Source: Candidatus Ligilactobacillus faecavium (GTDB taxonomy: Bacteria; Bacillota; Bacilli; Lactobacillales; Lactobacillaceae). Taken from it: 57,678 bases of DNA. The notes beneath the pieces are model-generated. The model was not told the DNA's origin. It was given only the letters and a program-made list of their open reading frames with translations, and ran no database searches. Each line of letters starts with the position of its first letter. Position 1 is the stretch's first letter. Position numbers and translations under genes: made by a program. This document shows, piece by piece, positions 48,923-57,678 of this stretch. The stretch spans positions 1 to 57,678 of the forward strand of contig DWVG01000017.1 in NCBI GenBank assembly GCA_019120355.1. The letters run 5' to 3'.

Positions 48923-49813
48923 ATGAAGAAATTTTCAAAATTATTTTTATTAGCTGTCGGCGCAATTTTACTCACGTTTTCTTTAAGTGCTTGCGGAAAG
49001 CAATCGTCCACTAAAAAAGCATCAACTGACAAACTCAATGTCGTTGCAACAACCAATTTTTACGGCAACATTGCTCAGGAAGTTCTCGGCGATCACGGAA
49101 CCGTAACGTCGATCATTAATAGCCCAAACATTGATCCGCATGACTTTACCCCGACAACCGCAACCGCCAAAAAAGTTGCTAAGGCCAATCTTGTGATTGA
49201 AAACGGAGTAGGGTACGATACATGGATCAATAAGCTGCAAGCCCGGAAAATTCTTTCGGTCGGAAAAGTCGTTGGTGCCAAAGATGGTGATAACGAACAT
49301 CTATGGTACAATCCCGATAACATCGAAAAGTATGTTGACGCCCTTGCTGTCCAATACGGTCGGCTTTTGCCTCAAGACGCCGCAGCCTTCAAAAAGAACG
49401 CGGCTGCTTATAAAAAGAAATTAAACGTTCTTAATCAAAAAATGAATCAAATCAAAAACGAAAAGCAAAATGCAAATGTCGCCGTCAGTGAGCCAGTCTT
49501 TAACTATGCCCTTCAAAAGATGGGCTTCAAGGTCACTGACAATCATTTTGCCCTTGCAATCGAAGAAGGATCAGATCCGTCATATACTGATATTCGTGAC
49601 TTGCAAAACAGTATTAAAGAACACAAAATTGCATTTTTCGTTTTAAATAAACAGGATGATAGCAAAATCGTTGATAACATCGCTGACCTTTGCCGCAAAG
49701 AAAACGTTCCGATCTTAGAAGTCACCGAAACAATGCCAAAGGACGGTAACTACATCGAATGGTTCAGCAATGAATTAGATCAACTTGCTAAAATCGTTCA
49801 AGCAAAGAGGTAG
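48923..49813 (+). CDS. Metal (Zn/Mn) ABC transporter substrate-binding lipoprotein
   Basis: Lipobox LSACGKQ, NIDPHDFTPT, NEHLWYNPDN, IEEGSDPSYTDI. Confidence 0.93.
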   Translation: MKKFSKLFLLAVGAILLTFSLSACGKQSSTKKASTDKLNVVATTNFYGNIAQEVLGDHGTVTSIINSPNIDPHDFTPTTATAKKVAKANLVIENGVGYDTWINKLQARKILSVGKVVGAKDGDNEHLWYNPDNIEKYVDALAVQYGRLLPQDAAAFKKNAAAYKKKLNVLNQKMNQIKNEKQNANVAVSEPVFNYALQKMGFKVTDNHFALAIEEGSDPSYTDIRDLQNSIKEHKIAFFVLNKQDDSKIVDNIADLCRKENVPILEVTETMPKDGNYIEWFSNELDQLAKIVQAKR

Positions 49814-49820
49814 TCATCAT

Positions 49821-50483
49821 ATGCAACCAATTTTAGAAGTTGAAAATTTAGATATTAAAGTCCCTGATCGAACGCTTTTCCGGAATCTAAACTTTGCAAT
49901 TCCGCGAAATGAATTAACATGCATTACGGGCGAAAACGGCGTTGGCAAATCAACCTTGATCAAACATTTGATTCAGGATCTGAACCGCAACTCAACGATT
50001 CATGCGCAATTTGCGATTCCGCGCGATAAAGTTCAGTACGTGCCGCAATTGCGCAACATTGACGATGAATATCCGCTTAGTATTCATGACTTTGTTGCCT
50101 TAGGATTTAAGCATCGTATTTTGCCTTGGAATTCAAAAGCCATGAAGCAACGCTTGCGAGAAATTTTGGATGAAACAAAATTGACCCGCATCCAAGCGCG
50201 ACCGCTCGGAAAAGCTTCCGGCGGTGAAAAACAACGCGCTTATCTTGCCCAAGCATTGTGTGCTGATCCGCAGCTTTTAATTTTAGATGAAGCCACTGCG
50301 AACTTGGACCAATCAGCCAAACATTTTCTGTTGCAGCTTTTAAAATCGATCATGCAAAATCATGATCTTACTGTAATTTTTATCACGCACGACCCGGAAT
50401 TGATTGCTGCGTATGCTGATAACGAGCTGCACCTTGAAAATCAAACCGCAACAATGACTCGAATGAAGAAAGGAGAAAATTAA
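49821..50483 (+). CDS. Metal ABC transporter ATP-binding protein (start at 49821)
   Basis: Walker A GENGVGKSTLI, signature ASGGEKQRAYLAQAL, Walker B LLILDEATANLD; SD AGAGG before MQPILEVENL. Confidence 0.94.
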   Translation: MQPILEVENLDIKVPDRTLFRNLNFAIPRNELTCITGENGVGKSTLIKHLIQDLNRNSTIHAQFAIPRDKVQYVPQLRNIDDEYPLSIHDFVALGFKHRILPWNSKAMKQRLREILDETKLTRIQARPLGKASGGEKQRAYLAQALCADPQLLILDEATANLDQSAKHFLLQLLKSIMQNHDLTVIFITHDPELIAAYADNELHLENQTATMTRMKKGEN

Positions 50484-51283
50484 TGTTTAATTATGCTTTT
50501 ATGCAGTATGCATTCATTGCTGGAATATTTATCGCATTAATTTGTGCTGTGATGGGCGTTTTCGTCATCGCTCGGCAAACGTCATTTTTTGCCCATACCC
50601 TTTCTGAAATCGGCTTTTCAGGTGCAAGTTTTGGCGTGTTTGCGGGCATTTCACCGCTTACAGGCATGCTGCTTTTCACCTGTTGCAGTGCGTTATTTAT
50701 CGGATTTTCAGGTGAAAAAGTCAGTCGGCGCGAATCATCGATCAGTGTTTTTTCAGGAATTTTCTTAGGTCTGGGAGTTCTTTTCCTGTCGCTTTCCGAT
50801 AAGCAAGCAAATTACGCAACCAGCATTTTATTTGGAAGCATCGTCGGCATTGACGCTGCTAATCTGCGTGATCTCGTTTGTTTGAGTATCTTCTTATTGA
50901 TTCTAATTTTCTTTACTTTCCGGAAATTAGCCTTCAATTCTTTTGACGCTCAAGGTTCTGAATATAATCAGCGGTATAACAAGTTAATCTCGGTGCTCTT
51001 CCTCTTAATGCTGGCGTTGACCGTCAGCATTACTGCGCAAATTATTGGTGCGTTGCTGATTTTCGTTCTGCTTACGATTCCAGCATCTGCATCTAAGTAC
51101 TACGTTCATTCATTATGGAAAATGATTGGTCTGACCTTTATCTTCGCAATTACCGGAATTTGGCTTGGGTTATATTTAAGTTATTTAACAAACTGGCCCG
51201 TTAGTTTCTTTATCACGGTGATCGAAGCATTGATCTATGGTAGTGCGCTTTTAAAACAAAAAATCAGCAATCATCATAATTAA
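50483..51283 (+). CDS. Metal ABC transporter permease
   Basis: ABC-3 family TM protein: FFAHTLSEIGFSGASFGVFAGISPL. Confidence 0.94.
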   Translation: MFNYAFMQYAFIAGIFIALICAVMGVFVIARQTSFFAHTLSEIGFSGASFGVFAGISPLTGMLLFTCCSALFIGFSGEKVSRRESSISVFSGIFLGLGVLFLSLSDKQANYATSILFGSIVGIDAANLRDLVCLSIFLLILIFFTFRKLAFNSFDAQGSEYNQRYNKLISVLFLLMLALTVSITAQIIGALLIFVLLTIPASASKYYVHSLWKMIGLTFIFAITGIWLGLYLSYLTNWPVSFFITVIEALIYGSALLKQKISNHHN

Positions 51284-55789: not shown

Positions 55790-55826
55790 AAATAGGCTGT
55801 GACTTTCGTCACAGCCTATTTTTTTG
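55790..55826. terminator. Bidirectional terminator
   Basis: AAAATAGGCTGTGACTTTCGTCACAGCCTATTTTTTTG. Confidence 0.88.
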
Positions 55827-55827
55827 T

Positions 55828-57618
55828 TTAAACTTTCAAAATCACAAAGCCATTTTGAGCGATTTTATTTTCATCTTCCATCAAATTCTGGCTCAAAACA
55901 ATTTCGGAATTTTGCGGAATAACAACCTTCACGCTACCATATCCAAAATTAAACAAACAGAACAATTTCTGACCGTCATATTCCCGGGTCAACGTAAAGT
56001 ACCGGTACTTATTGCTTAATTGGCCCCATTCAAGGGTCCCGTCATTTAGCAAATCAGCGTATTCCCGCCGCATTGCAATCGCATTTTTCATGAATTGCAG
56101 CATCGATGAAGACTGATCTTCATCCTTCCACTTCATCGGTGCAAGGTTCGTTGGCACATCTTCACCCGTTACCCCCACTTCAGTTCCATACATGAATGAT
56201 GGAATCCCAATTTGCATAAAGGTAAAGGCAATGATTGCCCGCGCTAGATCTTCTTCGCCGTTACATTCGCTGATCAGCCGCGGAGTTCCAAAACTTTCAA
56301 CCTCGTTGATCAGCGTTTGATTTGTATAAACGGTATTCTTCATTAATGCATCGTTGATTCGCGAAATCATTTCCGTAACGTTTAACTGATGGGTAATGAA
56401 GAAATCATGCATAATCGTATAGAAATCAACGTTATTTGCACTATCAATATAATCCTTGGCCAAATCGCCGTTGGGTAAATATTGATATTGCCCCATTACA
56501 ACAAAATCAGCTTTGATGCTGTGCATTTGTTGGGTCATTAAATTCAGGAATGTCTGATCAACCTCATCGGCATTCAAAATTTCCCAGCCGTCAATATCAA
56601 ACGTTTCGATCCAATACCGGGCAGTTTCCAGCAAGTATTGCTGAACCGTTGGGCTTTGCAGGTTTAATTTCGGCATATGGATGTTGCCGTCAATCGTTAA
56701 GTAATACTTGTCCGGATCTTCATTTTCATTTGGAATCTGAACCGGGAACTGCCGCACCTTGAACCAGCTTGCAAACCGTGATTGCGCTCCAAGGCGTTGA
56801 ACATCTTGCCATTGAAGCGCCATGTCACTCATCCGATCAAGCGGTAGTTGAACCATGACGCGCATTCCACGTTGATGTGCCTTTTGCACAAATTCACGGA
56901 AAAGCTCTTTTGAACCGAACATGTAACTTAAATCATAAAAATCAACCGGATCATTTTTCTGGTTCGAATATGATGCAAAAATTGGCGAAAGCTTAATCCC
57001 GTTGATTCCGAGCTCATCAAGATAATCGAGATGGTCGATCACCCCTTGCAAGTCACCGCCATAAAAGTTTGTCGCCGTCGATTTGTCAAGGTCCCACCGC
57101 GCTTTTTCAAGCGGTTCGTTGTTTTCGTCACCATCCGCAAACCGATCGAGCATAATTTGGTACCACACCGTGTGCTTCGTCCATTCAGGATTTGAATGCA
57201 TCAAAAACATGTTTTGATAATACGGCGTGTTAAACGGGGTTGCCTTTTCCAAGAAATCCGCCATGTAAAGGCGGACGTTGACTGCATCATAAAGCAGTTC
57301 GCCATCATGATCACCAATCAAATGGAAAAGATATTGGGTTCGTTCCCGAACCTTGACTGGAATCGTGATTTCCCAGTAATCATACAAATCCGTTTTTAAG
57401 ATACACTGCATTGCTTCCACGTTCGGCCGGATGATTTCCATATCTTCTTCACTGTCAGCTGCTAGTTTTTGCTGTTTAATGCGATCCAGTTTGCCGTAAA
57501 TGATTTCGACCTGGTGCACATCGGCATGTTTGGTTCGAAGCCGAATTCGAAACTGGTTTTTGCCCGCCAAGTAAGCCATTTCGCTTTCCGGGCGGTGATA
57601 AATTGCCGCCTTTTCCAT
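55828..57618 (-). CDS. GH13 neopullulanase/maltogenic-amylase-like protein, predicted catalytically inactive
   Basis: Full-length GH13_20-like architecture (MEKAAIYHRPESEMAYL..., HTVWYQIMLDRFADGD, FYGGDLQGVIDHLDYLDELGINGI) but motifs I-IV replaced. Confidence 0.88.
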   Translation of the reverse strand: MEKAAIYHRPESEMAYLAGKNQFRIRLRTKHADVHQVEIIYGKLDRIKQQKLAADSEEDMEIIRPNVEAMQCILKTDLYDYWEITIPVKVRERTQYLFHLIGDHDGELLYDAVNVRLYMADFLEKATPFNTPYYQNMFLMHSNPEWTKHTVWYQIMLDRFADGDENNEPLEKARWDLDKSTATNFYGGDLQGVIDHLDYLDELGINGIKLSPIFASYSNQKNDPVDFYDLSYMFGSKELFREFVQKAHQRGMRVMVQLPLDRMSDMALQWQDVQRLGAQSRFASWFKVRQFPVQIPNENEDPDKYYLTIDGNIHMPKLNLQSPTVQQYLLETARYWIETFDIDGWEILNADEVDQTFLNLMTQQMHSIKADFVVMGQYQYLPNGDLAKDYIDSANNVDFYTIMHDFFITHQLNVTEMISRINDALMKNTVYTNQTLINEVESFGTPRLISECNGEEDLARAIIAFTFMQIGIPSFMYGTEVGVTGEDVPTNLAPMKWKDEDQSSSMLQFMKNAIAMRREYADLLNDGTLEWGQLSNKYRYFTLTREYDGQKLFCLFNFGYGSVKVVIPQNSEIVLSQNLMEDENKIAQNGFVILKV

Positions 57619-57678
57619 AAACTAATTCCTCGCTTTTATTTCATAATAATTTTTAAGTTTGTTGGTTGAACTGCCTTG

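Follow-up and report, generated by a model that had tools for sequence, protein, structure and literature searches.

A GH13_20 homolog with a kept fold and a replaced active site

A gene for an amylase-like protein in Candidatus Ligilactobacillus faecavium lacks the catalytic residues of its relatives, which raises the question of whether it is decaying or has been kept for another role, and what that role might be. The gene lies at one end of the window, by which we mean the whole analyzed stretch of 57,678 nucleotides, and runs from 57618 to 55828 on the minus strand. It starts with ATG, preceded by the ribosome-binding sequence GCGAGG, and encodes 596 amino acids with no internal stops. A perfect 14-bp terminator hairpin with A/T runs on either side, recognized by reading the sequence (positions 55790 to 55821), is common to this gene and a convergent gene encoding a LysM-NlpC/P60 protein.

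We classified the whole gene as a degenerate GH13_20 homolog on the basis of its open reading frame, Pfam domains, a fold match, and intact orthologs. Pfam placed an Ig-like N-terminal domain (Alpha-amylase_N) at residues 1 to 111 (E = 1.3e-20) and an alpha-amylase catalytic domain at residues 154 to 512 (E = 2.2e-38). An AlphaFold2 model of the monomer reached a pLDDT of 91.3 and a pTM of 0.91; with the Pfam match, this predicted model delimits the N-terminal Ig-like domain at residues 1 to 125 (57244 to 57618, minus strand). In GH13_20 enzymes, this domain is the dimerization domain. In a fold search, the model matched the alpha-glucosidase 7ehh over its full length with a TM score of 0.92, and the closest solved structures were the Weissella cibaria alpha-glucosidase (7ehh/7d9c) followed by the maltogenic amylase and neopullulanase group. 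Pfam, model, and fold search together identify the GH13_20 layout of N-domain, GH13 barrel, domain B, and domain C. The protein also shares with GH13_20 enzymes (neopullulanase, maltogenic amylase, and cyclomaltodextrinase) most of the framework residues, glycines and tryptophans among them, as well as the region V-type MPKLN motif, kept as HMPKLN. No signal or membrane segment was seen in its N terminus.

Unlike these enzymes, the window protein has neither the catalytic triad nor the other conserved active-site residues. We aligned it with 31 Lactobacillales sequences of active GH13_20 proteins, where "active" is a label resting on sequence and denotes a copy that keeps all eight standard active-site residues. 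All 31 active rows read D N H R D E H D at these columns; the window protein carries Q257, D261, R262, E346, L348, Q377, F443, and G444, differing at all eight. None of the triad is kept: the nucleophile Asp is replaced by L348, the acid/base Glu by Q377, and the transition-state-stabilizing Asp by G444. Other residues of the −1 subsite are changed as well (Y209 to K, H220 to Q, and Y222 to N). The alignment locates these replacements, all on the minus strand, in former region I (QLPLDR for DAVFNH, residues 257 to 262; 56833 to 56850), former region II (DGWEILNADEVD, residues 343 to 354, with Arg changed to Glu346 and the nucleophile Asp to Leu348; 56557 to 56592), former region III (MGQYQY, with the acid/base Glu changed to Gln377; 56479 to 56496), and former region IV (SFGTPR, residues 442 to 447, with His changed to Phe443 and Asp to Gly444; 56278 to 56295). 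Over all active and degenerate rows, 33 columns are invariant, among them W146, W152, Y153, GGD187-189, W270, W285, F286, D343, R447, Y477, G478, and E480. Judging from the alignment, the protein has lost its chemistry but not its scaffold.

Purifying selection on the degenerate gene

Three further assemblies, two of L. aviarius and one of L. araffinosus, carry identical replacements except for Val at position 444. Because independent assemblies share the replacements, sequencing or assembly error is ruled out. Position 444 is Gly in the window protein, Val in the proteins of those three assemblies, and Asp in orthologs of 69% identity; this variation among close orthologs suggests that the former catalytic position is free of constraint.

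The closest orthologs are 98% and 97% (L. aviarius) and 95% (L. araffinosus) identical. Compared with close orthologs, the degenerate gene gave dN/dS values of 0.011 to 0.020 (NG86) and 0.024 to 0.038 (YN00), and the intact paralog of the same genomes gave 0.029 to 0.033 (NG86) and 0.048 to 0.063 (YN00). These values are given for close pairs alone because dS was saturated in more distant ones. The degenerate gene is under strong purifying selection, with constraint no weaker than that on the intact paralog, which in the source genome lies on contig C86 and has the active-site columns DNHRDEHD. In G008, an 89% complete draft, the degenerate gene is split into two frames; all other full-length copies are intact. 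A decaying pseudogene is ruled out by the low dN/dS together with intact copies in independent assemblies.

An earlier note, made from the DNA letters alone, had described a full-length neopullulanase/maltogenic amylase framework with an undisturbed reading frame and every catalytic motif replaced, and had read the gene as a retained pseudoenzyme, not a decaying one. The Pfam domains and fold match, the uninterrupted frame, the eight changed columns, and a dN/dS at or below that of the intact paralog all agree with this description, and the active paralog that it suggested looking for elsewhere in the genome is represented by the active-looking copy on contig C86. The spread of the clade through the genus and the shift of constraint to domain C, described below, lay beyond what the note could see.

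One clade across Ligilactobacillus

When relatives were searched and their catalytic columns read, full-length degenerate homologs were found in 20 further Ligilactobacillus genomes and partial copies in two more (a contig-end fragment in G015 and the broken copy in G008), in draft assemblies on which all presence and absence calls rest. An amylase-like protein without a cutting site is retained by most Ligilactobacillus species. In a sample of about 750 other Lactobacillales genomes, no degenerate copy was found outside the genus. Within it, absence of the gene looks genuine in G001. In G016, the contig stops about 270 bases past the neighboring uracil-DNA glycosylase gene, and because it terminates so near the locus, the absence may be an assembly gap. 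Neither the degenerate gene nor the neighboring uracil-DNA glycosylase gene was found in G009.

All 21 full-length degenerate rows formed one clade in the tree (support 100/100), adjoining the active Ligilactobacillus GH13_20 copies. The clade was recovered with an SH-aLRT of 100 when every motif column was removed and with an SH-aLRT of 99 from domain C alone (stem length, 0.98), which rules out convergent loss mimicking a clade. Each of 16 representative degenerate copies keeps at most one triad residue; activity was therefore probably lost once, and anciently. We infer that this single loss took place near the base of the clade. In the early-branching pair G024 and G004 (L014:1501-3270 and L022:1501-3270), the eight columns read D S Y H E E H V, with the acid/base Glu retained, a Glu at the nucleophile position, and Val in place of the third acid. 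These copies may represent an intermediate step in the loss of activity.

A domain C profile scored 144 to 158 bits on the degenerate clade, a match that holds by construction for the rows from which the profile was built, and at most 69 bits on every other GH13_20 protein sampled among 401 genomes of the family and 398 of the order (partly overlapping sets). Every clade member belongs to Ligilactobacillus. The informative part of this search is that no intermediate scores occurred outside the clade in the sampled genomes.

As a separate observation, residue 158 in the PERF motif (window positions 57145 to 57147, minus strand) is Glu in 31 of 31 active sequences and Asp in 16 of 16 representative degenerate copies, a conservative change yet a perfect marker of the clade.

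Constraint has moved from the barrel to domain C

The degenerate clade is most conserved in domain C (residues 501 to 596; 55831 to 56118, minus strand), which, unlike that of GH13_20 enzymes, carries a new conserved motif specific to the clade, WGQxSNK...TR...FN.GYGS.K..P...QN, with the members W531, G532, R545, F553, F556, N557, G559, Y560, P568, Q577, and N578. Of the motif positions, 532, 553, 560, and 568 never vary within the degenerate clade but do so in active enzymes. Mean pairwise identity in domain C is 0.51 among degenerate proteins versus 0.30 among active enzymes, so that the extremes are swapped: the most conserved part of the former is the least conserved part of the latter. 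In contrast, the half of the barrel containing motifs II to IV has a mean pairwise identity of 0.32 in degenerate versus 0.63 in active proteins. Barrel identity in matched species is 0.42 versus 0.68, and N-domain identity is 0.37 versus 0.50.

Across 14 species with both copies, divergence in domain C relative to that in the barrel was 0.85 (0.74 to 0.96) for the degenerate and 2.21 (1.93 to 2.50) for the active copy, with ranges obtained by column bootstrap. Relative to the active copy, the degenerate copy had lower dN in domain C and higher dN in the barrel in each of seven comparisons between matched species, of which about four are independent. The constraint shift is a property of the whole clade, from which a single pair departs: between L. 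aviarius and G003, domain C is 56% identical versus 71% for the barrel (domain C of their active copies, 47%).

To our knowledge, domain C of the GH13 fold has no well-established function of its own. A sequence search of domain C against the PDB returned weak matches, exclusively to GH13 enzymes, and the idea of a known binding module was dropped on these grounds.

Genomic setting of the degenerate gene

In many species, the degenerate gene occupies one recognizable chromosomal region near the LysM-NlpC/P60 gene and a uracil-DNA glycosylase-like gene. Several loci also contain sugar genes, for which the names mal and scr were assigned from Pfam domains and gene order. In two species, an operon-like run of malL, an active GH13_20 gene, malE, malF, malG, and a membrane protein gene ends in the degenerate gene; one of these runs, that of G020, has a LacI-type gene at its head. 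Four species have malL and an active GH13_20 gene followed by the degenerate gene, and in two species it adjoins a sucrose-type PTS permease gene with GH32 and LacI genes. An active GH13_20 copy lies beside or near the degenerate gene in six species. Partial matches to the CRE consensus of catabolite-response sites were found upstream in a few species, inconsistently.

The L. aviarius subclade has no mal or scr sugar genes at the locus; instead, a 5′-nucleotidase-like metallophosphatase gene lies 15 to 17 bp upstream. The window holds the last 43 bases of this gene (57636 to 57678, minus strand), ending 17 bp before the start of the degenerate gene; it was identified from sequence and from intact copies on L035 to L037, L069, and L070 (for example, L036:6400-7983). 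Its position makes it a probable operon partner, only in the subclade of L. aviarius, L. araffinosus, G003, and G025.

Three species (G004, G013, and G019) carry the degenerate gene without any intact GH13_20 gene. This rules out an obligate partnership with the active enzyme; the earlier note had listed a partner of an active amylase among the possible roles, and as an obligate role it did not hold up. Only 7 of the 26 genomes of the genus have a MalE ortholog; the degenerate gene is present in 6 of those 7, and most of its carriers lack MalE, which rules out an obligate component of maltodextrin import. Likewise, glgA scored above the cutoff in just 10 of the 26, and many carriers have no glycogen synthase, ruling out an obligate tie to glycogen. 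Since the degenerate gene is kept without the active GH13_20 enzyme, the MalEFG-type transporter, or glycogen synthase, it is an obligate accessory of none of them.

Two features of the surrounding region were recorded in their own right. The convergent LysM-NlpC/P60 gene (54260 to 55771, plus strand) encodes a secreted protein, with three LysM repeats in the type-strain ortholog and a long Ser/Ala/Gln-rich linker of strain-variable length; the protein has 503, 546, or 547 amino acids in L. aviarius and 511 in L. araffinosus. Genes for a metal-type ABC transporter (binding protein, ATPase, and permease; 48923 to 51283, plus strand) occur near the degenerate locus in several species.

Interpretation and rival explanations

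Across the clade, the glycosidase machinery has been lost and the fold kept under purifying selection, with constraint moved from the barrel to the C-terminal beta domain. With the cutting site gone and the tail domain best conserved, the protein is therefore probably a binding or regulatory protein, not an enzyme. The explanation that we favor with reasonable confidence, taken as a whole, is a cytosolic, Ligilactobacillus-specific pseudoenzyme whose function has moved to domain C. It would have originated when a GH13_20 maltodextrin hydrolase was duplicated early in the history of the genus. Domain C would do the binding, the barrel and N-domain would serve as its scaffold, and the protein would probably still be dimeric. 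The ligand would most likely be a protein partner or a glycan of carbohydrate uptake and its control. This setting is suggested because mal and scr loci adjoin the gene in several species; since neighbors differ between subclades, it could also reflect inherited position only. Slightly better than an even bet, in our estimate, is the further proposal of a genus-specific family that turned from amylase to regulator or scaffold, with selection moved to domain C and successive stages of active-site loss preserved in the lineage.

Alternatively, the barrel cleft may have been rebuilt for another reaction with other residues, possibly different ones in each subclade. The cleft of the L. aviarius subclade is still polar (K209, Q257, D261, R262, E346, and Q377), five of these residues (K209, Q257, D261, R262, and E346) are common to orthologs of 69% identity, and the 5′-nucleotidase-like gene 15 to 17 bp upstream might fit such a change. 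However, the former catalytic positions carry no clade-wide conserved replacement, the motif II to IV columns are the most variable of the whole protein, and position 444 varies (G, V, or D) even among close orthologs; we therefore consider a new enzyme unlikely. Slightly less likely still is a role in which the protein, as a regulatory subunit or decoy, joins the active GH13_20 enzyme at the N-domain dimer interface and modulates that enzyme's activity. Retention of the N-domain and overall fold would suit this role, as would the nearby active copy in six species, but G004, G013, and G019 retain the dead gene with no intact GH13_20 copy, and conservation of the N-domain falls short of that in active enzymes (0.37 versus 0.50).

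We give still less weight to a lectin-like sensor that binds maltodextrin or another sugar with the remains of the old cleft. That several species carry the gene in a mal or scr locus is consistent with it, and 4F2hc, which lacks the triad, might keep glycosidase-like binding without catalysis (PMC8537225). Against this, the window protein has also lost the −1 subsite residues H220, Y222, and Y209, and no region evolves faster than the cleft. Decay or an assembly error, which the two-frame gene of G008 would fit, seems to us highly improbable: other full-length copies are intact, dN/dS is 0.01 to 0.04, independent assemblies agree on the residues, and the gene has its own ribosome-binding sequence and terminator.

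Relation to known proteins and significance

Animal GH13 pseudoenzymes have been described, and 4F2hc keeps none of the three catalytic residues (PMC8537225). In the favored reading, the window protein resembles the amino acid transporter heavy chains 4F2hc and rBAT in putting the GH13 fold to a noncatalytic role. In contrast to these animal membrane glycoproteins, which belong to another GH13 branch, it is bacterial and derived from GH13_20. Among bacterial amylases, BmaN1 of the GH13_45 group has lost only the third acid (Asp to His) and is still active (PMC5347038). The BmaN1 group and the window protein are both GH13 members that depart from the canonical triad; however, the window protein does not follow the GH13_45 pattern of two acids plus His, having none of the three acids and G, V, or D at position 444 in close orthologs. 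A literature search of papers available without subscription found no bacterial GH13-fold pseudoenzyme described.

GH13-fold pseudoenzymes are known mainly from animals. The degenerate clade is a conserved bacterial case in a common vertebrate-gut genus, in which automatic annotation sees only an alpha-amylase. Many of the same genomes hold active sister copies that serve as a matched control, and the early-branching G024/G004 pair may preserve an intermediate stage; the order of events from enzyme to regulator and the role of domain C are therefore directly testable. For the genus itself, GH13 gene counts in Ligilactobacillus overstate its starch-degrading capacity.
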